Source of the DNA: Hericium rajendrae | Lineage: Eukaryota; Basidiomycota; Agaricomycetes; Russulales; Hericiaceae | Assembly: GCA_033439255.1 (NCBI GenBank) | Contig: CM065887.1 | Coordinates: forward strand, 62,001-126,000 | Reading direction: 5' to 3' | DNA: 64,000 nt | Shown: positions 1,226-60,731 of the stretch, piece by piece | Layout: the number at the start of each line of letters is the position of its first letter | Position numbering within the stretch: position 1 is the stretch's first letter | The notes under the pieces: generated by a model | Seen by the model: only the letters and a program-made list of their open reading frames with translations | The model's database searches: none | Told to the model about the DNA's origin: nothing | Translations under genes and position numbers: made by a program

Positions 1226-1300
1226 ACGAGTATCGTTCGAAAACGAACGATACTCGTATGATTAGCACAAAAACAAAAAAAGACGACTATTGTACTTACC
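1226..1300 (-). other. Hairpin intron module (minus strand), F1
   Basis: On the minus strand a GTAAGT donor (plus 1294-1299) is followed by a TGCTAAT branch-point match (plus 1261-1266). Directly after it comes a perfect 14-bp stem with a 4-nt loop (1226-1257). The arrangement is donor, branch point, hairpin, then the GC-rich block. The same order is found in eight other copies in the window. Confidence 0.6.
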
Positions 1301-1700
1301 TTAGTTCCCTCGGCATCCCTGCGAGACCTCCCGACCGTCGAATGACACCGTGCGTTGCGTATAGAAAGAGGTTGGGGCACGGGAGGGAGAGGACGGACTC
1401 GGAGTGAAAGGTGAACGAAGTTGAACGCACCAAGTCGCACGTCGAGTGCCACAGCAAGCACTCGACTCGCGCGGCTGGCGGTTTCGAGCTCAACAACTCA
1501 AATAAAATCTTTAAAAATCCAAATAAAACGCCGCACGTATAACTTTGTTGTATCTAGACTATGAATGAGCCAGGCATGTATCTACTCTACTCTACATTCT
1601 CGAGCAACCGATGTACCTTAGTGAAGTCTGCATCAGTAGCCTCTGCCGCGGCGCCCGGCAACCGCCGGCCAGCTGTAATTCGGGCTCCGACGCGCTCGCC

Positions 1701-1707
1701 TATATAA
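1701..1707 (+). promoter_or_regulatory. TATA box of F1 plus-strand unit
   Basis: TATATAA followed by a pyrimidine-rich stretch (CTCTTTCTCTTTCG...CATCTCTCGTCTCTC) typical of fungal transcription starts. Equivalent boxes lie at about 11737-11743 in F3 and about 44558-44563 in F2, each followed by similar CT-rich DNA and then by a GTAAGT donor. This looks like a conserved Pol II promoter for a spliced non-coding transcript. Confidence 0.5.
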
Positions 1708-1804
1708 GGCATGCGCGACGCGCGTCCTCTTTCTCTTTCGTACCACTACCATCTCTCGTCTCTCGTCTTTCGCCATTCTCTCCTCTCTTCAACTCTTTAT
1801 ATCC

Positions 1805-2010
1805 GGTAAGTCCTTATGTTGTTACATTGTTGACTTATACTTATGCTTATTATTATCTTTGTAGACTTGAATATTTTCGCTTTTTCTTCTCTTTGTGGTA
1901 AGTCTTATATTTTGTTCTATCTTTCTATTGTTTACTTACAATAAGTTGTTGACTTTTAAGGTTTCATTTTCGCTTTTTATTGTCTTTGAGGAGTAAGTCC
2001 TTTTCGTTGT
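1805..2010 (+). other. ATTTTCGC micro-exon series of F1
   Basis: Successive GTAAGT donors and TAG/AAG acceptors frame short segments that each carry ATTTTCGCTTTTT, for example between TTTGTAG near 1863 and GTAAGT near 1899, then again near 1960-1990. F2 and F3 repeat the arrangement. No coding capacity is visible. Confidence 0.45.
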
Positions 2011-2519
2011 ATCTTTTATCTAATCTAATCTAACTTATGTTTGTAAATATATATAGATTTACTAACTTTATACTATAATGTAGTTCTCTTGTATATTAGT
2101 GTCTTTTGTATATTAGTGTTTAATAAAATGATATGTTTTTAAAATTTCGATGTTTTGTTTGTTTAAAATATTCTGACTATAAGCATATAAAACAATTTTT
2201 TATAGTATTATTAGGTAATATAATACTTACAGGTGACATAGAGTAGATAGCAATCCTAATAGGCTAGATATAATATGATAATGAGCATATAGAATATAAC
2301 TGACATAGCTAATATAGCTAATATAGCTATCATAGCTATGCCTTATGCTTTGGTAGCTATCATAGCTATCATAGCTAGACATAGCAATCCTATTTGACTA
2401 CATAGCTTGCCATAGACTGCTCTTCAGCTATGGGGGCCCTATGTATAAAAGGGGATTGCTATGGAACTATGACTTCTATATAAACAATATAGGGCAACAT
2501 AGCACTGGTACATTTTTCA

Positions 2520-2937
2520 GATGAACGAGATAGAACTCAGCTGTCTCCTCATGGAAGGACGTCGAGGCCTTGGCGTAAATGCGGATGTTCTGGTTGACTG
2601 AATAGCGGACCCAGCCCATGATGTTTTCGGAGTTGTCCACATTGCGAACGGGAAAGGGTTTAGGGAGTTTCTTGAGGGGGAACTGGTGTTTCTTGGCAAA
2701 CTCGGGGTGCATAATGATGCCTTCTGCACCACTATCGAGAAGTGCCTCAGCATTGATTTGTTTCTTGATCGGGGTAGTGATAATCTTGGCCTGGAGCGTA
2801 ATGGACGGTGTCTGACGGTTGGGCGTGATAGCGGACATGCACAAAGATGATGGATACGATTGCTCACAGGGGTCGGATAGTACAGAGAAGTGATTTGACG
2901 GATCAAAGAAATGTTTCTTGCCACCCACGGATGACAT
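2520..2937 (-). pseudogene. Gypsy-1 pol start, retropepsin-like part
   Basis: Begins with the GGKKHFFDPSN segment seen in the other two copies and includes DSGAEG, the aspartic-protease active-site triad context. It ends where F1 is inserted. Fossil fragment. Confidence 0.8.
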
Positions 2938-2951
2938 AACCGGAGGGCACT

Positions 2952-5589: not shown

Positions 5590-5754
5590 GATGTTGCACT
5601 TCAAAACTGAGTTTTGATTATGTAAGCAATGCCTCAACAGCTGTTAAGGTGTTTGCTCAGGTTCAATTCCACCTCTGGCCATTTTGTTTTTTCTTGTATT
5701 TTAATTTATAATAAATGTGTTTAATGCTTGACAAGTAAAACTTATGTGTATTGA
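5590..5754. other. Spacer between Gypsy-1 and F3
   Basis: Unique DNA flanking both elements. It contains GGTTCAATTCC near 5670, which resembles a Pol III B box, but no partner A box or folded acceptor stem is apparent. Nothing else is recognised. Confidence 0.4.
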
Positions 5755-7303
5755 CATCTGAGAGATTAAAATTTTATATAGTCTAGTGTTCATCTATATG
5801 TCCTATCATAATGCTATTAGGTCTGTCATCATCTATGTAGCTATCTTTCTCAACTATATAAGGCTATGAGGCCTATCATAGCTTATATAGCAGTAGTTAG
5901 ACACTATATAGTGCTATATATTTCTAAGGGGCAGCTATAGCTGCTATATAAATTCACTGGCTTGCTATGGTCCCTATGGTCCTTATGATCCCTACAGTAA
6001 GTGAGATATGAATACTATTATTACTACCTTAGAAGTCAATTAAGTACAAAAAAAATCAATTATATTTAATGTGGCTAGTAGTACAATCAATTACACTACT
6101 AATATGAACAACGCATGCCACATGGACAAGCGCGCTCAAGCGCATGGGGCGCAGCAGGCGTACGGGGCACAGGAGTCGTGCATGCAGCACAGCAGGCCTA
6201 TCCACGAGGTGCTGGGCCCGTGTGCAAGGTGTTGGCCTATCCATGAGGCACTAGGTCTGTGTGTGAGGCACAGGAAGCACTGGGGCCATGCGCACTGGCG
6301 TTGGGCTGCAGTGGGCTCATATGCAAGATGTGGGGTATGCACGAGGTGCAGCAGGGCACGGCGGCAGGTGTGCTCGAGTTGCCGGGGTGTGGTAGGCCCA
6401 TGCGCGAAGCGCGACACACATGGGTGATGCATCGGGGTCCAGTGGCCATGCACAAGGCACGCCAGATGTTGCACAGGGCGCGGGGCTCCCGCTGGCTTGT
6501 GTGCAAGATATTGCAGGTGCGGCAGCATTGTACACATCAGTAAACCTGGAAATTTCTGATTGATATCTGATTGTATCTGATTTGATCTGATTCAGACCAT
6601 TCAGACAGTCAGATGAGTCAGGTAGGTCTCTATCGTCCAGTGTCTTTCAGATAAAAGTGTCTGATTTCAGAACAAAGTCTGAGTATCAGATAGCCATCTG
6701 AGTGTCAGATCTTATCTGAGAGTCAGACAGCCATCTAAATATCAGATCTTGTCTGAGAGTCAGACAGCCATCTGAATATCAGACAATTGTCTGGAATGTC
6801 AGATCTTATCTAAGTATCAGAGTTTATCTGAGAGGCAGATGTTCTCTGATATTTATCTTAGTTGTATCTGAGGTCAGACTTATGATTGGATATCAGATCA
6901 AAGTCTGACATAAGATAATGTCTAACAGTCAGATGTCTAGATAAACCTTCAGATTTCAGACATTGTGCAAAAGCAGGCTTATTTCTCAGACATATTTGAG
7001 TTCACACTCAAAATCAGATAGAAGCCATATAAGGTCAGACATCAGAATCAGTCTAATTATATGATATTCATCTCTAGGACTTGGGTCTAGAGATAAGTAC
7101 ACATAGTCAAGAGGAGATGCATGGGAATGGAGTCATCATGTTGGAGTGCAGGAAGGGGTGCATCGGAGGTCAGATGAGGTGTAACCAAAGAGAAATGATT
7201 TAGTACAAAAAAATGAGAAAAGAATACCATACTCACCTGCGAAGGACCTACTGTGCTGTCACGAGACTACAGGGCATCGAGAGTCTAAGTACAAAGAAAG
7301 AAG

Positions 7304-7400
7304 GCATCACTCGATAACGAGCAATGCTCTCTTTGTTAGTACATGAGAACAACCAAGATTAACAAGATTAACTTACAATTGTTTGTTACCCTAGAGACTG
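7304..7400 (-). other. Hairpin intron module (minus), G
   Basis: On the minus strand a GTAAGT donor (near plus 7372) is followed by a GTACTAAC branch point (plus 7335-7342) and a 10-bp hairpin with two mismatches (7304-7327). A second GTGAGT donor lies further along near 7233. Confidence 0.45.
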
Positions 7401-7700
7401 CCACGAATCCGTTCGACAGCGACTGGACAGCGCACGATGTTTATCGAGCTTCGTTGCCACAGCAACGAGGATCGATGTCGACGCTGACGCCGCGGGTGGG
7501 GTTGAGGGAAGCAGAGGGGTGGAGGCTTGCGGACGTGGTGCACACGCTCGGGGCATGCGCGGAGGCAGAAAGCGATGGAGCAGATGCATGCGAGCTTTTG
7601 AGAGCTCGCTCGAGTCGTGGACAGTGACCGCGGGCTGTTGAAGCCACGCGGGAATGCGCAGGAGGCGGGGCGAGGCGCATTGAATAACGTGCAGCCGAGC

Positions 7701-7720
7701 CTCGTTGCCACGGCAACGAG
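7701..7720. promoter_or_regulatory. RFX X-box-like palindrome in G
   Basis: CTCGTTGCCACGGCAACGAG contains GTTGCC-AC-GGCAAC. An imperfect sister lies at 7451-7468. The same site is present in F1 and F2. Confidence 0.45.
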
Positions 7721-7851
7721 ACTCGACGATGTTGCCGGCGAGGTTGTCGAAGGAGTGGGATGGGGGCGGGTTCATAAGCATGGTTGCGGGGTGTCGTAGG
7801 GGGAATATAGGGTGGTGCTGGGGGTGATCTGGGCATCAAAGGGAAGGATCA

Positions 7852-7922
7852 ACGAGCATCACTCGAGTGATGCTCGTTTTGTTAGCATAACACGACAAGA
7901 ATTGAGGACTGTTCTACTTACC
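7852..7922 (-). other. Hairpin intron module (minus), G, perfect 26-bp palindrome
   Basis: Minus-strand GTAAGT donor at plus 7916-7921, a GCTAAC branch-point match near 7880, then a perfect palindrome at 7852-7877 with arms ACGAGCATCACTC / GAGTGATGCTCGT and no loop. Confidence 0.55.
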
Positions 7923-8261
7923 TAAGCCCCTCAACCTGGCTACAACCCTCCTAAACGTCGAACAATGTGAGGCGGCATGTGTGAAGAGGAAGAAGACGGG
8001 TGGGACGAGAGATCTATGAGACTAGTTACGAGTCTCAGTAAGGGAGTTGAACGTTGAAACGTTGAACTGTTGAACGTTGAAGTCGACGCGCGTTGCCGGG
8101 GATTGCCGGTCGGGGATTGCCGACCGGGCCGTTGGCTTGCCGGAAGCTCAACGTGCGTTGAAACGTTAGAGTCGTACTTGCTGTCTTTCGTCTCTCCTCC
8201 CCTCCATTCTTTCTTCATTTTCTGATCCCCTGAAGGCCTGAGGGGCTTAGTCGAGGCCTAG

Positions 8262-8360
8262 GTAAGTCGCTAGGTCTATTATTGTATATGTTCATTGTAC
8301 TAACTCGGGGAGTACTGCTCGTTTTCGAGCAGTACTCCCTATTTTCGCACTCTCTGACAT
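8262..8360 (+). other. Hairpin intron module (plus), G
   Basis: GTAAGT donor at 8262, TACTAAC branch point at 8298-8304, then a hairpin at 8308-8339 with 14-bp arms beginning GGGAGTACTGCTCG. An ATTTTCGC word and a possible acceptor follow. It mirrors the minus-strand module at 7852-7922, so the two transcription units diverge. Confidence 0.6.
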
Positions 8361-8427
8361 CAATTCGAAGGCCGGAAGGACGCGTTAGAAGGCCGGACGG
8401 GCTTACTGGAGGCTAGATGGCTCTAAG

Positions 8428-8520
8428 GTGAGTCCTAAATTTAGTATTTCATCGTCTTTCGTGCTAATCTCGGGAGTACTGCTCGATAACGAGCAGTACT
8501 CTCCGTTTTCTCGTTTGCAC
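8428..8520 (+). other. Second hairpin intron module (plus), G
   Basis: GTGAGT donor at 8428, GCTAAT branch point at about 8463-8468, and a hairpin at 8472-8503 with arms GGGAGTACTGCTCG / CGAGCAGTACTCTC around ATAA. Confidence 0.6.
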
Positions 8521-8569
8521 CAAACCCCCCACCCCGTCCGTCGCGTGTCTCACGCCCTCCTCCCCCGCG

Positions 8570-9345
8570 CAGGCTACTGGGTCCGAAATCTGTGCATTTC
8601 GGGCCCCACAGGTACGTGGGCCTTTTGTTATCGTATTTCCCTGCCCGCGCAGGCTGGGGTGCCCGAAACGTTTTCGTTTTGGGCCCTACAGCTGCGCGGG
8701 CCTCCGAATTTTGTATCTACCTGCCCGTAGCACCTGTGGTGCCCGAAACGTTTTCGTTTCAGGCCCTACAGCTGCGCGGGCCTTCAATTATCGTATCTAC
8801 GTGCCCGCGCAGGTGTGGGGTCCGAAACGTTTTCGTTTCGGGCCCTATAGATGCGTGGGCATTCTATTTTCGTATCTACCTGCCCACGCAAGCTGTGGGG
8901 CCCGAAACGTTCACGTTTCGGGCCCTACAGATGCATGGACATTCGACTATGGTGTCTACCTGCCCGCGCAAGCTGTGGGGCCCGAAACATCATCGTTTCG
9001 GGCCCTACAGATACGTGGGCCTTCTATTTTCGTATCTACCTGCCCGCGCAAGCTGTGGGGCCCGAAACATCATCGTTTCGGGCCCTACAGATGTGCGGGC
9101 CTTCGATTTTCGTAGTTACCTCCCCGCGCAGGCTGTAGGGCCGGAAACGAGAACGTTTCGGGTCCTACAGATGCGCAGACCTTCGGCTTTCGTAGCTACC
9201 TACCCGCGCAGGCTGTAGGGCCCGAAACGATAACGTTTCGGGTCCTACAGATGTGCGGACCTTCGGTTTTCGTAGTTACCTGCCCGCGCATGCTGTGGGG
9301 TTCGAAACGAGAATGTTTCGGGTCCTACAGGCACGTGGGCCTTCA
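8570..9345. repeat. About ten 80-bp tandem repeats, each with a GGGCCCGAAAC hairpin
   Basis: Units of roughly 80 bp contain CCCGAAAC ... GTTTCGGGCCC, a stem of about 11 bp with a short variable centre (TTTT, TCAC, ATCATC, GAGA, GATA). A spacer with ATTTTCGTATCTACCTGCCC follows. Copies near 8583, 8660, 8740, 8820, 8899, 8980, 9061, 9141, 9220 and 9301 keep the stem while the centre changes. The unit length is not a multiple of three, so the open frame crossing it is not a conserved protein repeat. Confidence 0.8.
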
Positions 9346-9349
9346 GTGA

Positions 9350-10575
9350 TCATGTCAAGTTGTCAATTTATGCATGTTAAATCTAGACTCTGCAAAGCTG
9401 TTGTGAGTACTCAGCCTAAGTTCAGATTGAGCTCAAGTCCAATTTAAAATCAAAGTCTGATTTTCCATTTGATCCCGGTGCCAGTTCTGATTTTATAGCA
9501 GCCATTCAGATCCAGATTTAAGCTTGGATTTGATTTCTGTGGTGCTCAGGTTCACTTTCTGACCTTTAAGTCTGAGACAACTGTAAATATCTGATGAAAT
9601 TTTAGATGTCTGATGTGTCTGAAGGCTTATCTGACTTTGTCTGATAAATAGCTACTGTCTAACTCTCATTTAATGTCTGACAAGATCAATAATGTCTGAA
9701 ACAAGTTCATAAGTCTTATATGTTTAAAAGAACCTAAATGATAAGGACTTATTTGACTTAATTGAAAAGTAGCAGCTATTTGACTTTAATTCAATCTCTG
9801 AAAGACTTAATAATGTCTGATCAAAGTTCAAAAGTCTGGCATATCTAAAAGTATCTGAATAATAGAGACCTATCTGACTCTATCTGAAAAGTAACAATTG
9901 TCTGACATTTATTGAATGTCTAACAAAATAATCTTCATCTGACAGATTTTTAAAATTCTGACATGTCTGAAAAAATCTGAATGATAGAGACCTACCTGAC
10001 TTTGTCTGAAAAGTAGCAATGGTCTGACATTTATTGAATGTCTGATAAGATGATCTTCATCTGACAGATGTGTAAGAATCTGATATGTCTGAGAACATCT
10101 GAACGATAGAGACCTACCTAACTTCATCTAAAAAGTAGCAATGGTCTGATATTTATTAACTGTCTGGCAAAATAATCTTCATCTGACAGATACATAACAA
10201 TCTGACATGTCTGAAAACATCTGGACAATAGGGACCTACCTGACTCTATCTGAAAAGTAGCAATGGTCTGACATTTATTTAATGCCTGACAAAATAACCT
10301 TCATCTGACAGATGTGTAAGAATCTGATATGTCTGAGAACATCTGGATGATAGAGACCTACCTGACTCTATCTGAAAAGTAGCAATAATCTGACTTTAAT
10401 TGAATGTCTGACAAAATTACCTTTATCTGATAGACTTTTAAGAATCTGATAGTTTATATCTGATATTCTTCTGATCTTACAAAATGATCTACACATTATT
10501 TTATTCATATGTGAGTCAGACAAATGGACCTGTTCAGAACTCTCAGACAAAAGTCAGACAGTCAGACTAGTCAGA
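9350..10575. repeat. CTGA/CAGA-rich arm of G with about 180-bp repeats
   Basis: A repeated block containing CTGACATTTATTGAATGTCTGA, CTTCATCTGACAGAT and ATAGAGACCTACCTGACT recurs near 9860, 9990, 10110, 10230 and 10360. It is non-coding. The opposite arm (6541-7090) has similar words. Confidence 0.6.
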
Positions 10576-11268
10576 AGATTCCTCATTTCCTGATGCATGG
10601 TGTGGCATCATCCACAAGGTGCAGCAGGCATCTGCGGGATATGGTGGGCATCCATGGGATCCGACAGGTGTCGCGGGCCTTGGGGATGCTGCGGGAGGTG
10701 TGAGCGAGGCGTGGAGGACATGAGCGAGACGTGGGGGATGTGAGTGAGGTGCGGGGGATGTGAGTGAGGTGTGGGGGGCATGAGCGGGGCATGGGGGGCG
10801 TAGGCAAGAGTGTAGAGGGTGTGGGCAAGGCACGGGAGTGTGGACAAGGCGCGGGGTGCATGCATGGGGTGCTGGACTGCTGCAGGCCCGTACGCAAGGT
10901 ACGGCAGGCATCCTCCAGGTGCTGGCTCATATGCGGGGTGCAGTGGGTGTGGTGGGGCATGGCAGGCATGTGCGAGGCATCGGGCTCATGCGCAATGCAG
11001 AGGCCTGTGCAGAGGCCCTGGGGCCTGCGTGCGAGCATGCCTCGCATGGCCATGCACAACATGCATGCATGCGTGTGCTGGCTGACGTGCCCGTGCATGG
11101 CCATGGCCATCTGCCGGCTGTGCGTGCACTGGCATGCCTGGCCCATGCGCGAAGGGGCGTGCATCGTCCGGTGGTTTGTGGGGGCGATGTCGGGAGATGG
11201 GGAGTCGACAAGGGAGAAGTGGCAGCAAGGAATGGCAGCGAGGGAGGCCTGCAAGGGCGAAAGGTGGT

Positions 11269-11343
11269 GAGAGTATCACTTAAATGAGCGATACTCTCTG
11301 AGTTAGTACGAAAAAAAATGTATAGAGGTTTTTTTTACTCACC
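11269..11343 (-). other. Hairpin intron module (minus), F3
   Basis: Minus-strand GTGAGT donor at plus 11337-11342, GTACTAAC branch point near 11302-11309, and a hairpin at 11269-11298 with arms GAGAGTATCACT / GAGCGATACTCTC. Confidence 0.55.
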
Positions 11344-11819
11344 TGTAGGGCCCTCAGCATCCCGCTACCCTCCTTCGGTGTTCGGTTTGATGGGAGAGGA
11401 CAGACAGAAGGGAGGAGGAGAAGGAGAGGTAAGTAGTGGTGGTCGAAGCTCGAGTTGAACATTCAAACTTTGACACGCATTCAGCCACCGAATGCACGTG
11501 AGTTCGAATGTCTCGAGCTTAGCAAATAAAATAAAATAGCCACAAATCCAAGAAAAAGACATTGTGTACAATTTACCAATATAATTTGATTGCATGAGCT
11601 AACTACCTAGCTACTGTACTACAGGCTATTGGGCAGCAACACAAACTTAATGATGTCTGCCACCTTAGCCTCTGATGCAGCATTCCGACAGTGCCCGGGC
11701 CGAGTCGCGTCACTCACATTTGGTGCTCGCCACGTCTATATAAGGCATGCGCGATGTGCTTGCTCTCTCTCTTTCCTACCACCACCATCTCTCGTCTCTC
11801 GTCACTCTCTTCCCTTTTG

Positions 11820-12090
11820 CTTTAATCTTCTTATGTTTGATATGTTGTATTCTTGTTTTATTGTATCTAGCCTTATGTTTTTTTCTATAGCCTTTGCATT
11901 TTCGCTTTTTTATTTTCTTTGGTATGTTGTTATTTTGTTTGATTGTTTTTAACCCTAATGTTCTTCATAGACTTCATTTTCGCTTTTATTTCCTTAGGTA
12001 AGCCTTATGTTTTTATTTTATTTTGTGATACTGATTTGTTGACTTCTTTTGTAGATCATTTTCGCTTTTTCTTATCTTGACAGTAAGTTT
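11820..12090 (+). other. ATTTTCGC micro-exon series of F3
   Basis: At least three successive TAG-bounded segments each carry CATTTTCGCTTTT (near 11897, 11978, 12060) and end in GTAAG or GTATG donors. They lie downstream of the TATA box at 11737. The arrangement is the same as in F1 and F2. Confidence 0.5.
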
Positions 12091-12633
12091 TATCTTTATC
12101 TTATCTTTTATCTTATCTTGTCTTTATCTTATAGTCTTACCATATCTTATAGTGTATCATAGATTTGTTAGTAATATTTGTAGATGTATTATAATCAAAT
12201 ATTACTTGAAATATAATGCTTTTAAATTTTCGATGTTTTGAATATCTGAGATGTCTTATAATTAGCATCTTTTGAGTAACATTGTTGGTAAAGATGATAT
12301 AGAGTCAATAATAGTCTAACTAGCTGCATATAATATGATACTAAGGATATACCACATAGCTAATATAGCTATAATAATCATCATATGTTATGGCAGTTAT
12401 AATAGTTATCATCTTATAACAGATAAGTATGATGACTATAATAGTTACTACCTTACCTCATGATAGCTATGATAGCCCTGTATAGATTGTCTTACTGCTA
12501 TAGAGTGCTATGATAGCTCTATATAGATTGTCTTGCTGCTATAGAGTGCTATGTAGAAAAGGAGACTGCTATGGCCCTATCAGAGCTATATAGACTACAT
12601 AGTGCTATATACCACTGTTAAATTTCTCAGATG

Positions 12634-34065: not shown

Positions 34066-34069
34066 TTGG

Positions 34070-41675: not shown

Positions 41676-42959
41676 TCACCCCCTCTCTAAGACGCACTTT
41701 CGCCTGGAGTGCGTGATGAGCATGGACGGGATCGAGGTAGATGAGTCCACGAAGATTGGGAGCCTTGAGTGCATGCGGATGGCAGGTGTAGAAGTTGGTG
41801 ATTGCACCATGGGCATTGGAAAGGGAGGTACGTGAAAGCCACTGATTTTCTGAATCAGGGTAGCCTGCCCATTTGATGAGATATTCAATGCCGCGTTTGT
41901 TCCGAGTGAGACGAGCATCGAGGACAGACTCAACTTCGTACTCTTCCTCGCCCTCCACAAGGTCAGGTGGTGGTGCAGGGAAGTTGGGACCATGAGCATC
42001 GGTTTCCTTGTAAGGGGACAACAGGGACGTGTGGAACACCGGGTGGATACGCCAGGTGGGTGGTAGCTTCAGTCGATAAGAGACTGGGCCCAGGACGTCA
42101 GTGATTTCGAAAGGTCCCAGGCATCGATCAGCAAGCTTAGCTTTGGGTCGTGTGGTTTTGATGTTCTTGCCATCGAGCCAGACCTTGTCGCCAACCTGGA
42201 AGTGGATGGTGTCGTGCATATGGTCCTGGTTGTTGCGCTTCATGAGATCAGCAGCTGTTTGAAGGCTGGCCTGGACCTCAGTGCGAAGTTGTTCGAGGTG
42301 ACGGAAACGATCCTCGACGGCGGGTGTAGACGATGTGGGGTTGACAGTGGGGATGGCAGTGGGAATATAGCCGAGGAGCATTTCAAATGGAGCTCGGTTA
42401 GTGGCGCTGTGGATATGGTGGTTGTGCGAGAACTCAGCGTAAGGGAGCCATTGGACCCAATCATCCTGACGGTAGTTGCAGAAGGTACGAAGGAACTGCT
42501 CGAGTTCTTGATTGACGCGTTCTGACTCGCCATCGGTCTGTGGATGATAGGCGGTGCTGAGGGAGGACTTGATACCAAGTTTGTCAAAGACGCCACGCAT
42601 GACTTTGCCTGCATACTGTCATCTGAAAAATCTGATTTTTATATAGCAAAGGGTCAACCTATGAGTTCTATAGGTGAGCTATGGACTCTATGGCTTTGAC
42701 TTGTCAAGCTATATAGAGCTATGGCAGCTACCATAGCCTTTATAGCAGGCAGTGTAAAATATATAGTCACTATAGCTAGTAGTATTAGATACATAGAGCT
42801 ATACTACTTAGTAAGGGGAGCTATGGCTCCTATGATTACTACACTAGCTATATTCAATGAGATAGACATAAAAAAAAAATCTGAAATTTAAGGGAAGAGA
42901 CAGAGACAGAGACATTACAAGCAGTCTATTTAAAGTAACTAAGTTGCTAATTAAAGACC

Positions 42960-43900
42960 TGGCATGCGTGCACAAGGGCATGCGCAGACAACATGGCGCC
43001 CGTCGTCGGGACCGCCATGCACATGCCGTCGCTGGTATGCGTGGCTCCGCGCATCGTCGCCGGTGTGCGTGGCCTCGCGCGCGCAGATGGCGCCGTGCGT
43101 GGTCTCGCGCGCGCAGATGGCGCCGTGCGTGGTCTCGCGCGCGCAGACAGCGCCGTACGTAGCTGCCTGCACCGTCGTCGCATGCGTGCGTTGGCACGGT
43201 AAATGTGACCGTGCACGCGCAGACGGGGCCATGCGCGGCTGCGCACGCCGTGCGTGCGCGCGTGCACGTGCTGGCGCGGTCGTCTGTGGCCGTACGCAGG
43301 GTGGAACCGTGCGTGGCAGCCCGCACACTGGCAGGGCCGTGCACGGCTGCCCGTGCCATGCGTGCGTGGCGCGGTCATCCACGATCGTGTGCAGGCGGGG
43401 CGCGGTCGCGAGAAGGCGAGGCGCGGCCGCGAGCAGCGAGGGCGCGGCCGCGAGCAGGCGAGGGCGCGGCCGCGGGCGACCACCCGCGCGTCGGCAAGGC
43501 CGCGCGCCGCGGCGCTGGCCGTGCGTGCGTGCGCATAGGTGCTGGCGCGGTCGTCTGCGACCGTGCGAGGGCGGGGGCGGGGCGTGCGTGACAACCTGCG
43601 CGCTAGCGAGGCCATGCACGGCTGCCCGCGCCGTGCGTGGGCTGGCGGGGCAGTCCGCGGCCGTTGGGGTCGCCCGCAGCCGCGAGTAGCCCCGCGCGCG
43701 TGCGCACGCTGGCCGGATCGTCCGCGACTGCCCGTATGCGCTGGCGCGGTCGTCCACCGCCGTGCGCGGATGCGCTGGCCGTCGTCCGCCGGCGTGCGCG
43801 CGGACTTGCCGGCGCGCGTGGCCCGAGCACGCCGGCGGGGCCGCGGCATGCGTCTTCGCTGGCAGTGAGGGGGCGAGGGCGAGCCAGGGGGGAGGTGGAA
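42960..43900. repeat. GC-rich degenerate block of F2
   Basis: Built from GTGCGTGGCCTCGCGCGCGCAG-like units, including three near-exact 33-bp copies at about 43060-43150. Open frames on both strands reflect composition, not protein. Confidence 0.7.
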
Positions 43901-43964
43901 GAGGGGTCGGGGCTTGCGTTGGTCTTGCAGTAAAGGGCGAGCACGTCGTACGACGTCTAGTCGG

Positions 43965-43988
43965 GTCTCGTTGCCGTGGCAACGAGAC
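43965..43988. promoter_or_regulatory. Perfect 24-bp X-box-like palindrome in F2
   Basis: Arms GTCTCGTTGCC / GGCAACGAGAC around GT. A second palindrome, GTCGTACGAC, lies just upstream at 43945-43954, as it does in F1. Confidence 0.5.
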
Positions 43989-44085
43989 CTGACGTCGGCG
44001 TCGACGACCGCGATGTCGAGGGAGTGGGGTGGGATGATGTAGGGCGTGGCCGCGGGGCGTTGAAGGCGAGGTCGCGAGAAAGGAT

Positions 44086-44164
44086 ACGAGTATCGTTCGT
44101 TTGGACGAACGATACTCGTTTGATTAGCACGAAGACCAAAAAAAGAATGTGATAGTTACTTACC
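44086..44164 (-). other. Hairpin intron module (minus), F2
   Basis: Minus GTAAGT donor at plus 44158-44163, GTGCTAAT branch point near 44123-44130, perfect 14-bp stem at 44086-44119 (arms ACGAGTATCGTTCG / CGAACGATACTCGT). Confidence 0.6.
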
Positions 44165-44659
44165 TATAGCCCCTCGGCCCTCCTGCTCGCCTCCCGACCG
44201 TCCGTCGATGCCGTACGTTGCCTGTGTAAAGGAAGAGGGATGGGGAGACGAGGGGAGACGAGTGGCAGATGGAGAAAGAAGATGCACCGAGTCGCGCGTC
44301 GAGTGCAGCCACACCACTCGACTCGCGCGGCTGGCGGTTTCGAGTCCAACAAACCAAATAAAATCCGAAAAAATCCGAAAAAAACATAGCCAGCATAAAT
44401 TTGTTAGTTCTACATGATGAATGAGCTATGTATCCATCTGCAGTACTGTATGTTGCTGGGCACGCGAGTCAACTTAGTGAAATCTAAATCACCAGCCTCT
44501 CGCGCGGCACCCGGCAACACCCGGCAGCTGCATTTCAGGCTCCGCTCTGCGCTGGCAATATAAGGCCGCGCGACGCGCGACCTCTCTTTCCTCTCAACCA
44601 CTACCATCTCCCTTCGACATTCTGTCGTCTTTCTCTTTTCTCTTTCCTATATTACTTCA

Positions 44660-44860
44660 ACATTTATATGTTGTTGGTAAGTCTATAATCTTCTTTGATG
44701 TTGATACTACTAATGTCTTGACTTTGTAGACTTCATTTTCGCTTTTATGATCTTTGAGTAAGTCTCTAGTTCTTTCTTATGTTTGTTGTTACTTTGTACT
44801 AATGATGTGTTATTCTTATAGATTATTTTCGCTTTTTCTTCATGTTTGGTAATGTTACAT
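44660..44860 (+). other. ATTTTCGC micro-exons of F2
   Basis: Two clean examples. Segment ACTTCATTTTCGCTTTTATG... (28 nt) lies between TTTGTAG and GTAAGT near 44729-44757, and ATTATTTTCGCTTTTTC... (27 nt) lies between CTTATAG and GTAATG near 44821-44848. The introns between them carry TACTAAT branch points. Confidence 0.55.
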
Positions 44861-45345
44861 AGCTTTTTCTTATAGTTTCTATATTAGCATAGGACTCTTG
44901 TAGTCTTACTTTTGTAGTGTTTGTATTAGTATCATGAGAATAAATATAATGCTTTTAAATTTCGATGTTTTGATATAAGATGTAATAAATGTTTTATAAG
45001 CCTATAAAAGAGCTCATATATCTAAAATATGTTTATAGTATTTCTAAGTAACATATCAGTCAGAGATGATATAGAGTAGATAGCAATCCTATTAAGCTAG
45101 ATATGATATGATAATGGTTATACATAGCATAACTGACATAGCTTTTATAGCTACCATAGCTATGCTTTATGCTCTGGTAGCTATCATAGCTATCATAGCT
45201 AGACATAGCAATCCTATTTGACTACATAGCTTGTCATAGACTGCCTTTTAGCTATAGGGGCCCTATGTATAAAAGGGGATTGCTATGGAACTATGAGATC
45301 TATGTAAGCAACATAGGACAACATAGCATTGGTACATTTTTCAGA

Positions 45346-48300
45346 TGGTGGGCCACGATCAGAGATGAGGCGCTCCCAGAGGCCGTAGTTCCGATAAATC
45401 CTGTCAAAAAGGATGTCGACTGTGCCATCACTGGTAATGGTCTCGTTACAAGGAGTGAAGGAGACGTGCTTTGTAAAACGGTCGACGACCACATTGATGG
45501 AGTCATAGCCTTGGCATTCTGGGAGTTTGACGATGAAATCCGAGGTAATGTCTTGGAAGGGATGGGTAGGGATGGCATTGGGGATTGTTTCAACATGGGG
45601 GCAGTGATTTTGAACCTTGGTGGCCTGGCAGGTAGCACAGCCATCGACATAATCACGAACGAAGACAGACATACCGGGCCACCAGTAGTTGCGACTGAGG
45701 AGCTCATAGGTCTTGTAGCGTCCAGGGTGACCAGCCATGGGAGTGTCGTGATGCAGCTTGACGATATCTCGCCGAAGGTCCTTGTCAGCAGGGATGTAGA
45801 CTTTGCCACGAAAGAGGATGAGGCCATCCTCGTAGTTCCATTCTTGGAGGTTCTTGACGAGGGAGCGAGGACCGTTGTTCAGGATCACGTCAAGGGCTTG
45901 AACGACCTCAATATCCTTGGTCTTGGCATTGCGAATGCATTGGCGAAGATCAGCATTGCCAATGGACTTGACAGCGGCTGGACGTGTAGCACGAATCTGG
46001 AAGTACTTGGGGTCGAGGAGGACACGATCTGAGTTGTCGTCGTCCACCCCCTCTCTATGGTCAGGTCGTCTTGACATGGCATCTGGCCGGTGATGAATAC
46101 CGGGTTTGTGGATCAAGGTGAAGTCGAAACGAGTGAGGAAGAGAGCCCAGCGAGCCTGACGACAACTCAGCTTTTGGGCAGACTTGAAGTATTCCAGGTT
46201 CTTATGGTCGGTCCAGATCTCCACAGTATGGGGAGAGCCTTCCAGGTAGTGGCGCCAGGCTTCGAGGGCACGGATGATGGCCAGGAGTTCCTTGTCATAG
46301 ATGTCGTAGTTGCGTTCAGGGGCAGTGAAGGCCTTGGAGATGTAAGCAACAGGGTGCCATTGCTCGTCCTCCCCGCGCTGGGATAGGATACCTCCTGTGG
46401 CATAGTCTGAGGCATCGACCTCAACCAAGTAGGGTTTGGACGGGTCAGGCATGATAAGGACTGGGGACGAGGTGAACGCAGCTTTAAGAGCCTCAAAGGC
46501 ATGTTGACATTCAGCAGACCAGGCCCAAGGATGGTCTTTCTTGGTAAGGTCAAACATGGGACGGGCGACTTTGGAGAAGTCCTGGATGAAGCGTCGATAG
46601 AAGTTGCCAAAGCCAACAAAGGACTGGACATCCTTGACGTTACGGGGGGCAGGCCATTCAGCGATGCCTGCAACCTTGACGGGGTCCATGGCAAGCATGT
46701 TATGGGAGACGATGAGACTGAGGAACTCAATGGAGGGCTGCTCGAAAGAGCACTTCTCTGGCTTGAGGAAGAGGTCATTGTCCTGGAGGCGTTGGAGGAC
46801 CTTGCGCACAAGGTCGCGATGTTCTTCAAGGGTTTCGGTGAAAATGAGGATATCGTCCATGTAGATGACGACTTTGCCTGTGTCGATGAGATCCTTGAAA
46901 AGTTCATTCATCATTCCTTGGAACGTGGCAGGGGAGTTTGTAAGACCAAAAAACATCACCAGGGGTTCAAAGAGACCGCGGTTGGTTTTGAAGGCGGCTT
47001 TCCATTCATCGCCCTCCTTGATGCGAACGTTGTTGTAACCCCAACGAACGTCCATCTTGGAGAAGACCTTGGCACCCTTGAGCTTGTCAACGAGTTCAGA
47101 GATGAGGGGCAGGGGATATTCATTCTTGATGGTGCCCTTGTTGAGGGTGCGATAGTCCTGGACGGGGCGTAGTTTTCCATCTTTTTTCTTGATAAAGAAG
47201 AAGGGACTCGCCATAGGGGATTTGGAAGGACGGATGTAGCCCTTTTTGACCTGGTCATCAAGGAACGAATCGAGGTCCTCCTGCTCAGTGGGAGCCATGG
47301 GATAGACCTTGCATGAACGGGGTTCAAAACCATCTTTCAGGTCGATGGCGTGATCCCAAGGGCGACGTTCAGGAAGGCGATGGGAGGATTCCTCATCGAA
47401 GACGGGTTGGAAATCCTGGTACTGAGGGGGAACCATCTCAGCAAAGGACTTCTCCGCGACATGGGCGGCGACACGCTCAGCCAGTTTCTGAGCATTGGTG
47501 AAAGAGCAACGGATACGGATGGTATGTTGGTAGTCTGGGTCGTCATCTGGAGGGGGTGGTGTGTCCCAGTCAGGGAGAACACCAGCTAGGCGAAGACCCT
47601 CTTCAACCCAGTCATCATCGACGTTAGGTCGTGGGTCATCATCCTCGGTAAACAGACGTGCAGGGACTTTGGACAGGTGGATGCGGTGAAGACGGACACC
47701 TTGGACTCGGCGAGCAGGGATCACGTATTTGGGAAGTGGGGCAGGAACAAATGGCGGGGGCAGTGGGAGCAATGGAGGGGGCAAGGTGGGGGGAGCAGTA
47801 CAGCAGCGGTACTGAGGACTGGTGGACGAGGGGCTGATTGGCGGCGTTCCGAGCGAGTGGACAGGTTTTTGACCGGGGGCTTATTCAGGGTGCAAGAGGG
47901 AGGGCAGCGAGTCATGTCAACACGACGAGAGACCCAATCAATTTCAGGGTTGTGTTCCTGTAACCAATCGGTCCCAAGGATAATGTCATAGTCGCCAATA
48001 TCAACGAGATAGAACTCAGCTGTCTCCTCATGGAAGGACGTCGAGTCCTTGGCGTAAATGCGGATGTTCTGGTTGACTGAATAGCGGACCCAGCCCATGA
48101 TGTTTTCGGAGTTGTCCACGTTGCGAACGGGAAAGGGTTTAGGGAGTTTCTTGAGGGGGAACTGGTGTTTCTTGGCAAACTTGGGGTGCATAATGATGCC
48201 TTCTGCACCACTATCGAGAAGTGCCTCAGCGTCAATTTGTTTCTTGATCGGGGCAGTGATAATCTTGGCCTGGAGCGTAATGGACGGTGTCTGACGGTTG

Positions 48301-48416: not shown

Positions 48417-48430
48417 GACCGGGGGGCGCT

Positions 48431-53737: not shown

Positions 53738-55639
53738 AGTGGAGGTATATCACAGGAGGCAGCAAAACAATTTCCATCACGTCAACGGTGGCTAGGCCCT
53801 ATTCTAGCAGCTCTCACTTTATCTCCATTGGTTTTGTTCGGTAAAGTTTCTCTGTCTAATAGATGCCTTAGCAGAGTCACCTACGTGCAGGTGGGTGTAA
53901 TGATTTCTTCACAGTTTCTCAAATAGACTGATTTTTGTAGACACTGTATGCCCTCGGTAATGCAGGCAGACCTCAGGTGCTCGTGGACTTTGAACAGCAA
54001 ATTTGGGTGGCTTTGTTTTCTATAGCCAGGGGTGCATCTGCACAGACCAAGATGACTGAGCTGCTTGCTTATTGGACTGCTCAATTCACTGGCTTGGCTG
54101 AAATGAAAGATCCAGACGTTGCACATTGGTTTCAACGTTCAGACCTTACTGGTAAGGTTTCAAATGGTTGTCTAAGTGACTGTACATATCTTGAATTCTT
54201 TTATTTGGGTCAGGTCCATCAGGCATTGAAGATGGAGGAAGTGTAGATGCTGATATTGGAGAAGATGAGAAGATTGAGGCACTTCAGGATCAGCTGAATG
54301 GGGTTCGAGATTCCTTGGAGGTGAATGCACAATCTGAGATGGATCGCATCTTGAACATCCAGTCTGACACTTTCCATAGTGTCGAAAAACTCGAAACATG
54401 TGTGAAACAAGTTCAAGCATGGGTCGAAGCAGGCATGTATAGTAAGTTTTGAAATTCTTTTATAAAGATATATAATAACAAAAAACCTAGTGAGGGTTCC
54501 TGTACGCAAGTCTGCACGAGAAAAGAAGAGTACAACCTCTGAAGAAGCAGGTGGCTCATCGAGTTCCACCACTAAGACCTCAACAACCAAAGCAACGAAG
54601 AAAGCAAGTACCAGCAAGACGACCACTACAGGCACAAAGTCTACTACCACCAAAAAATCTGGCAGCAAGAGTACAGGTACAACAACATCTACAAGTAAAA
54701 ATGAAACTACTAGTACTACTGGCACCAAGGCATCAACTAGCACTGCAGAAGAAAAGAAGACTACTGAGCCAGAGTCTCATGCTGTGGATGAAGAATGGAG
54801 AAGGTATCCCAACTGAACGATAGTGAAGGTGGGCAAAGACCCTAAATATCTAAGTGCTATGGCTGCCTATCGGAATCTCCATGAACTAAAAGACTATGTG
54901 AGTGGATTTGTTTGGCTATTCATGATTTACTCATAATTCTATGACCAATAGCAACGCTCCTCCATGCTGGATCATAAATCTGCCAAGGTAAGTTACTTTC
55001 GGTATTGTTGTTAAATGGTGATGGTTCATAACTATGTGTTAGTTGGAGGAAACAGAAATTTTAATGCCAGCGTATAACCCTGTTAGCAATGAAAAGATTA
55101 TGGTGCCATATCGACCCTTAATCATGACTGGAGAAGTGAGCATTCATCGAGTATGTTGATCATGCAAAGCATGTTGATAACTTTTTACAGGACCACTTTC
55201 AACTTGAATTCGGTCAGAAGTTGCAAAGAGCTTTGGAAGCATCTTTGATCAATCATCAGTACTCTTACAAACTATCTGGCCATACCTGATTGCACCTGGG
55301 AGCAACATTCAGACACATCAGGCAATCATGCAGGGTATAGTACCACAGATACAATCAGATTTATATCTGGTCTCAGATTTTACTTCTAATCTCAGATTTA
55401 TGTCTGGCTCCAGATTTTATGTCTAGCTCCAGATTTCATGTCTGACTCCAGATTTCATATCTGCTTCAGATTTCATGTCTGGCCTCAGATTTAAAGCTGA
55501 TAGCAGCTTTAAACCTGATAGCAATTTTAAATCTGATATCAAACATTGAATTTATGCTTTTCAATCAATTAATATATCTATAGACTACACAAACATCATA
55601 TCAACTACATAAGTAATCATTCTAATCTCAACTACAAAA

Positions 55640-56545
55640 AAAAAAGCAAAAAGGCTTCAAATATAACAACATCAGGCTGAAAAACATAACAAAGATTATA
55701 AGACTTATCTTAGAACTACCAAAAAAGTAAAACAAACTACAAAAATAACAACATTACAAAGATAAGAAAAAGCGAAAATTGATTAAAAAGATAACAACAC
55801 TTACCTTATAATGACTACAAAAAAGCAAAAATAAATCTGAAAGACTACAACTTTATTAGTCTTAACAAGATAACAAAGATAACAAAACTTATCTTAGAAG
55901 TGTAGTCAAGACTACAAAAAGCGAAAATATACTAGAAAGATAACAATATAGATGTAAGGAACATAAGAAAGATAACAAAGCTTACCTTAAAAGTATACCA
56001 AAGTGTACAAAAAGCGAAAATGTAAGAAAACATAACAAAACATAACTTACAATGATAAGAAAGACTACAAAAAAGCGAAATATAGTGAAAAGGTTACAAT
56101 ATTAGTGTAAGCAACATAAGAAAGATAACAAATCATACCTAAGAAGTATAACAAAGACTACAAAAAAGCGAAAATGAACTAGAAAGATAACAACATCAGT
56201 TGTAATAAGATAACAAAGATAACAAAACTTACTTTAACAATGTAACAAACACTACAAAAAGCAAAAAGATAACAACTTAAAAGGTAACAAACCTTACCTT
56301 ACAGTTATAGCAATGACTACAAAAAAGCGAAAAGTGTACAAAAAGATAACAACATTAGTTGTAGTAAGATAACAAAGATAACAAATGCTTACCTTAGAAG
56401 TGTAGCAACACTACAAAAAAGCGAAAATAGATCAGAAAGATAACAAAGTCAACAATACTTATCTTAGGAGTAGTAGTCACATAACTACAAAAAAGCGAAA
56501 ATGAAGTCAAAGGTAACAAAGATAACAAACTTACCTTCAAGAGCA
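55640..56545 (-). other. Array of about ten micro-exons of 18-22 nt
   Basis: On the minus strand, acceptors of the form ATTTTCGCTTTTTTGTAG recur near plus 56495, 56415, 56325, 56170, 56075, 56015 and 55930, with weaker copies near 56260, 55830 and 55775. Each is followed by about 18-22 nt and then a GTAAGT/GTAAGC/GTAAGG-type donor (plus CTTAC near 56530, 56390, 56293, 56228, 55983, 55800). Examples of the short segments are TGTTGCTACACTTCTAAG and TCATTGCTATAACTGTAAG. Intervening introns are about 50-75 nt. The segments vary while the splice signals are kept. Confidence 0.6.
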
Positions 56546-56674
56546 GAGATGATGGTGGTTGCAGAGAGAGAGGTATTTCGGAGCAAACTCGTCTGATATG
56601 TCTTTTAATCGGAGTTTAAATCAGCCACATAGCCACAATTGAACAAAGACATATGATCTGGCGCTTGTAGCTCG

Positions 56675-57570
56675 CTCAATTTGTATCCGATTTCGACGTT
56701 CTTAATGCGTTCGAAAGGTCTTTTCAACCGCTTTCCAACGAGCCTTTATACGCTATGTTATGTGCAAAACTCGTGGAACGTGGTGCATTTTTGTTTTGGA
56801 AGAAGATTGAATGATATCTCAGTCAATTCTGAGCGCTTTTTCTCGATCTTGGATGCATTGGAAAGGGATGAATAATCGCTTTCCAACAATACCTCATAGA
56901 CTGTGTCATGTGAAAAATTCATAAGATGCAATTCATTTTTGTTTTCGATCTTCTGAGAAGAAGATAGAGGGGTACCTTGCTCAATTTGTATCCGATTTCG
57001 ACATTCTTAGATGTGTCGGAAAGGTCTTGTCAGCCACTTTCCAGCAAGCCTTTATACACTGTGTTATGTGCCGAACTCATGGAATGCAATGCATCTTTGT
57101 TTTGAAGGAAGATTAAATGATATCTTAGTCAATTTTGAATGCTTTTTCTCGATCTTAGATGCATCAGAAAGGTGTGAAAAATAGCTTTCCAACAAGCCTT
57201 CATAGACTATGTCATGTTCAAAATTCATAGGATGCAATCCATTTTTGCTTTTGATCTTCTAAGAAGAAGATAGAGCAGTATCTCATTCAATTCACATCTG
57301 CATCTGATTTCAATGTTCTTAGATGTTTTCAAAAGATATTTTCAATGGCTTTCCAACAAGCCTTTATATGCTATGTTATGTGCAAAACTCATGGAATGTG
57401 ATGTAGTTTTATTTTGAAAGAAGATTGAATAATATCTTAGTCAATTCTAAGTGTTTTGTCTAATCTTAGATGCATTGAAAAGGTCTGATTTACCGTATTT
57501 CAATAAGATCTTGTACAGTCTGATATCTGCAAAACTCATTTGTGCAGGACCATTTCTGCTTTTGATCTTA
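56675..57570. repeat. Three tandem repeats of about 302 bp in D
   Basis: CAATTTGTATCCGATTTCGAC at about 56677 recurs at about 56978, with a decayed copy (CATCTGATTTCAATGTTC) at about 57303. Each unit contains two halves with CTTTCCAAC(A/G)A and TATCTCAGTCAATTCTGAG-like words. Divergence rises to the right. Confidence 0.65.
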
Positions 57571-60136
57571 AACTAGAGATCTTGATTTATCTCAATTAGT
57601 TTTTGTCGAAAGCCCTATGTAATTGCTTTTCAATAAGCTCTTATGCATTATATTGTACTATTTTGACCATAGTTTCACTGGATGTAATCTGTGACCTTAG
57701 TCTACTAATCTAGAGGAAGTTTACAGCTAAAGGTGATCTACTTGAACCTTGAGTTTGTAATAACTTTGTCAATCACTTTCTATATCAGCAAATGCCTAGT
57801 ACATGAATTGGAGCAATTTTTAGTTTACTTTGATTTATCAAAAACCTTCAAAACTTTTTATTTGACCTGCAAGACATCTGACAATATCTAATTGTATCTG
57901 CATGACCTATAGCAGTTGCATCAGATACTAACATGCCTTGCAAGTTGGCACCTACACTTGTTAATTTTTGATTATTCTGCTTGATTTGATATTGAGCTAA
58001 AATTTAAATGTAAGTTGATATCTGACTATGTCTGAGAGATTACACCTGTCTGGCTAAACTGACAAAAAAAATTAATCTGATAAACATTCAGAATCTGAAA
58101 AATATTCAAAATCTGACTGTGTCAAGATTATACCCTGCCTGATCTGTCTGACAGCAAAAAATCTGAAAGATATCCAAAATCTGACTGTGTCTGAGAGACT
58201 ACACCCTGCCTGGCTGACCTGACAAGAAAAAAAAATCTGATTAACATCCAAAATCTGAACATCATTTAAAATCTGACTGTGTCTGGGAGACTACACCCTG
58301 CCTGATCTGTCTGACAGTAGAAGATATTTCAAATCTGATTAGGTCTGAGTGTAAATACATATCTGATAAAATCTGACTCTACCTGACTTGCCTGATTTTG
58401 TTTGTGGCCAGGAATGAACAATCTGTCAGGTATATAAGGTGATCAGACAAGATCAGACAGAATAAGTTCCAGCAGAAAGTTTGTAAGAGTACTGATGATG
58501 GTCTTCCTCGCATGAGCTTGTCTTGCTCTCATGACCAAAGAGTTGACCCTCAAGAGTCTCATATGAGGTCCTCAATCTATGTCTGCAGGCGACAAGATTT
58601 TGCTGTCTTGGATGCTGAAACTATTCAAGACATCTTTTTTAAGCGACACATTTTAATTACTGAGCAGGAGAGCAATGAGCCTTGGAATTGGAACTTGGAG
58701 TCTATGAGCAAGCTTGGTGACTTGCATGAAATAACTGATCTCCAAGGTATTGCACTTTATTTTTTTAAATATATGGTTTAATTTATAAATTTGATATCAG
58801 ACATGGCATACCGAAGTTCTGACAATCCAGATGCTCAACTCATACCTGGAACTCGTCTAGACATTTTAAAAGCAGGTCTTGCACATCAGGAAAAACAGTT
58901 TTTTGGGTGATAGCCGAGATATGGCTGCAGTAGCCGAGCCTTGGCTATAGTAACCGAGCTTTGGCTATCATAAGCCACTGGTTTGATATCCGGAGACCCA
59001 GCAATCTTACAAAGCCAGAACTACAGCTACCGTACTTCCTGTAGCACTGGTATATCACAAAAATAAAATGTTCACTCTGAGCTATTGCGCACTCTCAAAA
59101 GCATGCTTAAATGCCCAAATTATCCTTTGATTTCACTATAGATGTTCACAATAATTCTCATTGGACCTACACGTAGTTACAAATATAATCTCATGTACAA
59201 GATTCTAATGTCTCCTTCGAAGTATCTGAGCATGGGAACTGTTTTGCTGTAGCAAACGTGCCCGAGACGATGCGGGCACAGAGGAGACGGCAAGGGTGCA
59301 GGAGGGGCATGCACGTGCAGAAGGTGTGCGTGCACATGGGGGAGGCAGTGCGGACACGCACGAGGCAGCGCCGGCGCAGGTGTGCACGAGGTGGCACAGG
59401 CACGGGCAAGGTGGCACAGACACGGGGGAGGCGTCGCCGCCATGCGCAAGGCAGCGTGGATGCGCAGAAGAGGGCGCTGGTGTGTGCGAGGAAGACGACG
59501 CCGACCCCCGCGAGGCGAGCGGGCGCGCGGGAGATGGCAGGGGCACGGGGGAGGCGGCAGGGAGCGCTGGGGAGGGGTCAGTGGTGCGAGGAAGACAGCA
59601 CAAGTGTGCGCGACACGGCGCAGATGCTGAGGAGACGGCACGAGTGGGGGGGAGGTGATGTGGGCGCGCGGGAGATGGCACGGGCGCGCAAGTCAGCGTG
59701 GGAGTGTTGGAGCCGGTGCGGGGTGCGCGAGCCCGTGCGGATACGCGGGAGACGGTGTAGGCGTGTGGGAGATGGCAGGCACATGGGGAAAATGGCATCG
59801 GTGTGGGCGAGACGGCGCGGGCGCGTGGGAGAGGGCGCGGACACGTGGGAGAGGGCGCGGACACGTGGGAGAGGGCGCGGACACGCAGAAAAGGCGACGC
59901 AGGGGCGCGCAAGGCGATGCAGGCGTGTGGAAGACGGCAGTGGGCGCGAGGCCATGCGGGCATGCGGGAGATGGTAGGGGCGCATGGGAGGCGGCAGGGG
60001 ATGCGGGGAGGACGGCGGGGGCATGCGAGAGTCGGCGGGGGCATGCGGAGGTCAGCGAGGGTGCGCGGGTCGACGCCATGCATGGATATTGTGGGGGCAT
60101 GCGGGTGTCAGTGGGAGCATTGCGTAGGGTAAAAAC

Positions 60137-60214
60137 GAGAGTATTGCCCATATTCAAACGAGCAATACTCTCTATATTAGTGCAAAATGAGGTCAATAGA
60201 ATTGTTTTACTCAC
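60137..60214 (-). other. Hairpin intron module (minus), E
   Basis: Minus GTGAGT donor at plus 60209-60214, GCACTAAT branch point near 60176-60183, hairpin 60137-60172 with 11-bp arms GAGAGTATTGC / GCAATACTCTC. Confidence 0.55.
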
Positions 60215-60626
60215 CTTGTAGGCCTCTACGGCTCTTCCCCGTAGTGAATTTGCCTAAATACCTGAAAAAGGTATGTTAACCATCCATTGAAAGAGAGAAA
60301 CGTACCTTGGAGGTTTGAAAAATCAGACGTGTGAACCATTTGGCTGCAGCCAAACGTTTCCCACGCGCCCCCTGCATTTTTTTTCTTCAAGTCGAAACGT
60401 GTGCAGGCACGGCCCGCCACGCACCGTGCTATTTCATTGCCCATATATGGTCACTAAAACGGCTCGGGCCGTGCGGCTCCGTGCGTTCAACTTGTGCGTG
60501 ACTCGACTTTGTTTGCCACGTCGTCTTCCTTCCACCCTCTCCCCCTTCCCTTTCGCTGCTTCACTCTGGCGTGTTCATTGTAGATATGATTCCGTCTTCG
60601 TTGGATCTTGTCAGGGTGGGATCAAG

Positions 60627-60731
60627 GTAAGTATTTACAGTCATCTCATAGCTATCTTGTACTAATCAAGAGAGTATCGCTCGAGACAACGTGAGCGATA
60701 CTCTCATTTTTGTACTCTCCTACCTGCATCC
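60627..60731 (+). other. Hairpin intron module (plus), E
   Basis: GTAAGT donor at 60627, TACTAATC branch point at 60660-60667, hairpin 60670-60705 (12-bp arms GAGAGTATCGCT / AGCGATACTCTC), then a pyrimidine-rich run and CATCCAG acceptor at about 60731. This is the most complete module, with all four intron signals in order. Confidence 0.6.

Follow-up and report, generated by a model that had tools for sequence, protein, structure and literature searches.

Nine intron-like modules in five transposon insertions

The 64 kb stretch of Hericium rajendrae contig CM065887.1 analysed here (the window; the genome spans 46.8 Mb in 19 contigs) contains nine copies of a compact module that resembles the beginning of an intron, within five transposon insertions designated E, F1, F2, F3 and G. 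On the transcribed strand each copy presents a GTRAGT donor, a CTAAY branch-point sequence whose adenosine lies 37–41 nt from the donor G, about three further bases, and a stem of 12–16 bp. A scan of the window recovers all nine copies named in the original prediction, and a pattern made of the branch point and the left arm of the stem, with at most one mismatch allowed, matches the window nine times against 0.05 matches expected from shuffles. The first of these scans returns one weak extra match, at 11429 on the plus strand, with a sequence different from that of the modules. The nine copies had been assigned to four elements, a figure that we revise to five insertions, G being nested in F3.

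Element F1 (1..2523), whose right end is at 2523 and whose left end lies beyond the window, carries a minus-strand module at 1226..1299, with its donor at 1299, CTAAT and a stem at 1226-1257. Element F3 (5755..12633) has CATCTG..CAGATG ends flanked by GA/GA, and its own minus-strand module at 11269..11342 (donor 11342, CTAAC, stem) is followed by the acceptor candidate CCCTTGCAG. Element G, at 6535..10595 inside F3, ends in CATCAG..CTGATG with CA/CA flanks and bears four modules. On the minus strand, module 1 (7297..7376; donor 7376, preceded by ATT rather than AG) has CTAAC, a stem and, directly beyond the stem, the YAG-type acceptor candidate TGTACTTAG; module 2 (7851..7921; donor 7921) has CTAAC, a stem and the acceptor candidate GATGCCCAG. 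On the plus strand, module 3 (8262..8340; donor 8262, CTAAC, stem) is followed by a putative short exon and then by module 4 (8428..8503; donor 8428, CTAAT, stem). Element F2 (42620..45347; ends CATCTG..CAGATG, flanks GT/GT) contains a minus-strand module at 44086..44163 with donor 44163, CTAAT and stem; a second Gypsy copy, at 25132, shows the same site without the insertion, with 1 mismatch in 60 positions. Element E (58884..62224) has mixed ends, CATCAG..CAGATG, CA/CA flanks and two modules, both with CTAAT and a stem: module 1 on the minus strand (60137..60214, donor 60214), beyond which the next 507 nt past our measuring point hold no AG, and module 2 on the plus strand (60627..60705, donor 60627), which leads into the acceptor candidate GCATCCAG and then an AG-poor tract. 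The predicted transcription units of E and G diverge from the element centre, and the F elements have the hairpin intron on one side and ordinary short introns on the other. Between the two divergent first exons of E, at 60441-60450, lies the palindrome CCATATATGG, which we take to resemble a CArG box.

The ends of these elements recall Plavaka-B, a group described with CATCA..TGATG termini and 2–3 bp target duplications (Kojima 2025, PMC12730594). Equal 2-bp flanks are found in all four module-bearing window elements that have both ends. Among 31 further loci (L021-L050 and L056), 11 show both ends, 2.6–3.1 kb apart, and the flanks are equal over 2 bp in 10 of the 11, the exception being L021. 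Termini of the CATCA..TGATG type occur in G, L022, L025, L027, L029, L038, L043, L049 and others. The module elements differ from Plavaka-B in that several families end in CATCTG..CAGATG (F2, F3, L040, L050 and L056) and in that those tested lack a transposase: nine of the longer open reading frames of E, F1, F2 and F3/G matched no Pfam family, the Plavaka transposase domain PF18759 included. That domain is present in the window in a separate element, P1 (13265-23017), on the minus strand at 15990-17361, and a pattern search found no module in P1. Plavaka transposase matches in the genome amount to 132 rows, fragments included; no module was seen in the four best of these loci with about 1.5 kb on each side, and at L056 the Plavaka gene is separate from the module element. 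Since a transposase is absent from the tested reading frames and the element that has one has no module, the module-bearing elements are at most non-autonomous Plavaka relatives; they look like Plavaka-B relatives with transcription units of their own.

Coupling of the stem to donor and branch point

The strict search pattern CTAAYNNNNNGAGYRYYRYTCG covers the branch point and the left arm of the stem, and contains neither the donor nor the right arm. It has 379 matches in the genome (186 forward, 193 reverse), a count of strict letter-pattern matches only, and none when written backwards. Since CTAAY and an AG in the left arm, at 9 nt from the branch A, are built into this pattern, their conservation is not independent evidence. 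One hundred of the 379 places were listed, all on contigs C1-C5, and sequence was fetched for 30. A set of 50 distinct modules was assembled from these 30, which head the list and lie on contigs C1 and C2, together with the window and loci resembling G and E; four of the 30 fetched loci (L033-L036) belong to one copy of G. All 50 have a GTRAGY donor whose G stands 37–43 nt from the branch A, and in 45 of them a perfect stem of at least 12 bp (G-U pairs allowed) follows the branch point. The intron start with its hairpin is, as read from the genome sequence, a module that recurs in many copies of apparently non-coding fungal transposons.

Searching for the palindrome alone, with neither branch point nor donor required, gives 156 places in the genome and none for the backwards control; a collection of viral contigs gives no match. 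Among the 50 of these 156 palindromes that were listed, 44 coincide by coordinates with CTAAY at the exact offset, and the remaining six have CTAAA, CTAAG, CTGAT, CTAAG, CTAAA and CTGAT at the same offset. Each of the six has a GTAAGT or GTAAGC donor upstream; donors were read for these six and for the palindromes among the fetched loci. A branch-point-like sequence thus stands at one fixed offset in 50 of the 50 listed palindromes, which ties the stem to the intron and makes a free-standing DNA site less likely. This bears directly on the idea that the palindrome acts at the DNA level, as a binding site or cruciform for transposition or transcription, and lies near a branch point by descent only. 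The core sequence of the stem is indeed strongly conserved in addition to its pairing, as such a site would predict, yet the exact offset is kept even where branch-point letters are altered, and the arms change together; we consider a purely DNA-level role very unlikely.

The nine stems of the window have predicted stabilities of -18.3 to -29.2 kcal/mol, each exceeding all 200 of its dinucleotide shuffles (z -4.7 to -9.0), and 98.4% of their 124 pair cells are standard pairs. Cells changed on both sides number 17 against 5.3 in shuffles, and double changes are found in 7 of the 14 pairs against 4.1, a value reached by 7 of 500 shuffles. The larger set of 45 distinct stems behaves alike: 98.2% of 627 cells are paired, cells changed on both sides number 50 against 11.5 in shuffles and 0–11 when the arms are slid, and 8 of the 14 pairs show a double change (18 of 500 shuffles reach 8). 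The original prediction held that the arms differ between copies yet stay complementary, implying selection on structure, and had proposed a search for compensatory changes beyond those expected from recent shared copies. Such changes exceed the shuffles in both sets and, together with the fixed offset of the branch-point-like sequence, give good support to the view that selection acts on the stem as part of an intron.

The abundance of these very similar introns might suggest introner-like elements, in which the intron itself, placed in host genes, is the mobile unit; introners, as described, are multiplied introns that often carry hallmarks of DNA transposons (PMC9860276). The module intron differs in being internal to a larger transposon. 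All 30 sampled pattern loci (of the 379) lie in larger repeats whose flanks are common to other places, and where both ends were seen the mobile unit is the 2.6–3.1 kb element with its own ends, leaving this explanation next to no probability.

Proposed acceptor choice downstream of the stem

We favour, with a probability of about 0.62, the reading that the module is a standardised downstream stem in the 5' part of a U2-type intron, situated in the leader of outward-running transposon transcripts and deferring the choice of acceptor. Transcripts would begin within the non-autonomous Plavaka-like elements and run towards the element ends. The stem core, 3 nt beyond CTAAY, would bury left-arm AGs that end 5–9 nt beyond the branch adenosine, roughly the position at which the spliceosome might otherwise select its acceptor. 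By looping out 30–40 nt it would also bring a later AG nearer. Past the stem, the AG-poor, C-rich tract would defer the acceptor, often by more than 100 nt. The stem would accordingly lie between the branch point and the 3' splice site. That RNA is made and that the stem forms in the cell we infer from sequence, as we do the choice of AG and the benefit to the element; the benefit may, as a guess, be steady expression of a leader RNA free of premature acceptors, and one could speculate that the module also helps to avoid silencing triggered by stalled spliceosomes.

The principle of downstream stems is already known. In Saccharomyces cerevisiae they are reported for 21 of 88 introns, where hairpins between branch point and acceptor shorten the effective distance and some conceal cryptic 3' splice sites (PMC12350175). 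In Schizosaccharomyces pombe the distance from branch point to 3' splice site averages 12 nt, is best at 9 and 12 nt and works poorly at 30 nt or more, and structures can bridge long spacings: rap1 intron 2 was restored by compensatory changes (PMC9508853). The branch-point-distant introns of S. pombe, with their predicted folds, are like the modules in spacing, although rap1 intron 2 spans 39 nt and the modules would span tens to hundreds of nucleotides (PMC9508853). The S. cerevisiae stems, as described there, are varied and sit in host genes, whereas here one standard stem at a fixed offset is repeated in many transposon copies with candidate acceptors (PMC12350175). What appears to be new is the fixed, transposon-borne module in many copies. 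The original prediction knew of no described fungal transposon family with such a device; the combination was indeed not found in the literature searched, which included few subscription papers and left out supplements, and none of the titles and abstract openings found (again few subscription papers), among them those of 10 of the 11 papers that name Plavaka, describes hairpin introns in Plavaka elements. The novelty is narrower than that statement implies, in that the elements resemble Plavaka-B and downstream stems are known in yeast introns.

Downstream of the stem the modules fall into 29 families, which are similarity clusters and not fully independent. On the intron strand, 48 to 200 nt past the branch point, AG occurs at 0.57–0.59 of expectation and GA at 1.13–1.22; farther downstream AG stays at 0.54–0.79 to 900 nt, then rises to 0.91 and 1.19. 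Taken one by one, 22 families have fewer AG than GA, 3 have more and 4 have equal numbers; in the corresponding comparison for the opposite strand, 16 families have fewer CT than TC and 10 have more. The two modules of E are extreme: the AG-free 507 nt past the measuring point in module 1 has its counterpart in a single AG in 440 nt for module 2. The arms of E (~59250-60130 and 60720-61750) are GC-rich, resemble diverged units of ~20 bp and have few AGs on the outward strand. An apparent avoidance of AG in current turnover between copies (12 against 39.6 expected) was discarded as a candidate signal when it shrank to 12 against 15.7 on exclusion of CpG changes.

Distances to the first AG were taken from one row per family, the first member and not the family minimum; for family 9 this is L013, which has no near AG, although its family mates L015 and L017 do. 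With the stem looped out, the first AG lies 15–35 nt from the branch A in 8 of the 29 families, among them F3 and G modules 1 and 2 as well as E module 2. For comparison, a simple pattern detects six ordinary introns, distributed over the F arms, an array at 55600-56560 and P1, and in these 12–33 nt separate branch point and AG. A second donor with its branch point is found on the same strand in four of the 29 families, and in one of these the stem is degenerate; such an arrangement implies an intervening exon. As a count this second-donor scan is weak: it gives 5 hits, including one that is no module, where shuffles give 2.45 and the opposite strand 2; AGGTRAGT within it occurs 5 times in sense and never in antisense, against 0.2 in shuffles. 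The idea in the original prediction that the hairpin hides or bridges sequence so that a distant AG is used is partly supported, being consistent with the AGs that lie inside the stem and the AG-poor tract that follows it. Bridging by the stem would still leave the next AG at least 52 nt away in 21 of the 29 families.

Several observations weigh against acceptor deferral by a selected stem. In those 21 families the first AG is 52–516 nt away even without the stem, beyond the range of efficient splicing in the yeasts named above, and the stem stands only ~5 nt from the branch adenosine, nearer than yeast is known to tolerate. In 20 of the 29 families a pyrimidine precedes this first AG (YAG), as C-rich sequence may yield anyway. 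AG is scarce on the other side of the branch point as well, in a stretch 260–160 nt upstream (0.64 of expectation), so that its depletion is not peculiar to downstream sequence, and the turnover among recent copies with CpG changes excluded (12 against 15.7) gives no clear sign of current selection. Folds of 330 nt left an accessible AG in just 9 of the 29 families and are uninformative, as the GC-rich stretches pair nearly everywhere. For the stem itself, pair types show no excess over shuffles in the nine window copies (14 against 14.1) and no clear one in the 45 stems (20 against 18.2).

The same distances raise the question of whether splicing is completed at all. With a strong donor and branch point, near AGs sealed in the stem and no AG beyond, the spliceosome might cleave at the donor and then discard the intermediate, creating a 3' end and stopping outward transcripts; the module would be a transposon half intron, evolved for first-step-only cleavage. 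The telomerase RNA of S. pombe is reported to stop after the first step because its branch site pairs completely with U2 and its 3' splice site lies far from the branch point (PMC4299874), and the module may resemble it in both respects, bearing in mind that its CTAAY is given by the search design and that its acceptors are candidates. The 21 families with an effective distance of at least 52 nt, and the empty tract of E module 1, agree with such an arrangement. Unlike telomerase RNA, 47 of the 50 modules lack an Sm-like run just ahead of the donor (RTTTT occurs in 3, counting the 40 nt at the end of exon 1), some families have acceptor candidates within 15–35 nt, and the four families with a second donor point to an exon 2, so we regard first-step-only cleavage as unlikely. 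If it were true, the half intron would set free a short leader RNA together with a lariat whose tail contains the arm of the element, would stop transcription into neighbours or control exposure to RNA-based silencing, and would make spliceosomal cleavage a mobile regulatory part.

Two further explanations assign the stem a regulatory or inhibitory role. It could act as an acceptor switch, exposing the left-arm AGs when opened by heat or a binding protein and directing splicing to a later AG when closed. The left-arm AGs follow a G, which makes a poor 3' splice site context, their conservation belongs to the search pattern, and the stems are very stable (median -24.9 kcal/mol for 45 stems). 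The left-arm AG ending 9 nt past the branch A, often accompanied by others at 5 and 7 nt, is nevertheless at a usable distance by the 9–12 nt optimum of S. pombe, where heat-sensitive splicing of structured introns has been reported (PMC9508853); overall a switch seems very improbable. Alternatively, the stem could, through its strength and its position 5 nt away from the branch point, serve as a splicing brake that blocks helicase loading, stalls the spliceosome and alters how the element's RNA meets RNA-based silencing. The closeness and strength of the stem fit this, and stalled spliceosomes have reportedly been linked to siRNA, but the conserved strong donors and branch points suggest selection for use, and a brake appears still less probable than a switch.

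This one genome is a source of some hundreds of natural module copies, with compensating arms, varied loops and next AGs at 15 to more than 500 nt, from which one could learn to what extent the choice of a 3' splice site can be deferred by structure and by avoidance of AG. The copies also bear on whether first-step-only splicing exists outside telomerase RNA, and suggest that a non-autonomous DNA transposon of a fungus can have intricate non-coding transcription units of its own.

Further features of the elements and the window

A second palindrome, CTCGTTGCC..GGCAACGAG, is present near 1105, 7690 and 43965. It starts ~134 to 169 nt past the branch point and, judged by the longest stem, is found in 6 of the 29 families. 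Its arms change in step in some copies (CTCATTGC..GCAATGAG) and contain early AGs of the module introns.

Arrays of short introns lie at 55640-56540 on the minus strand and in the plus arms of F1 (~1800-2040), F2 (44676-44860) and F3 (11880-12080). By eye, a repeated micro-exon with ATTTTCGCTTTTT stands between the introns, and the simple pattern finds five of these introns, with 12–33 nt from branch point to AG.

No match at gathering scores was obtained in an Rfam search of the window, and a tRNA search of the window found none. The fungal mating pheromone family PF08015 has three matches which, with the many Plavaka transposase matches, point to a basidiomycete and probably a mushroom. Within G, an 80-bp unit is repeated in tandem ~10 times at 8564-9344, and the majority of the copies contain a strong palindrome, for example GGGCCCGAAACG..CGTTTCGGGCCC. 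The plus strand of P1 (~17700-22100) carries a second gene that seems to have several introns and contains an 81-bp repeat, and an open reading frame at 36148-36846 matches RNA polymerase Rpb1 domains 4 and 5.

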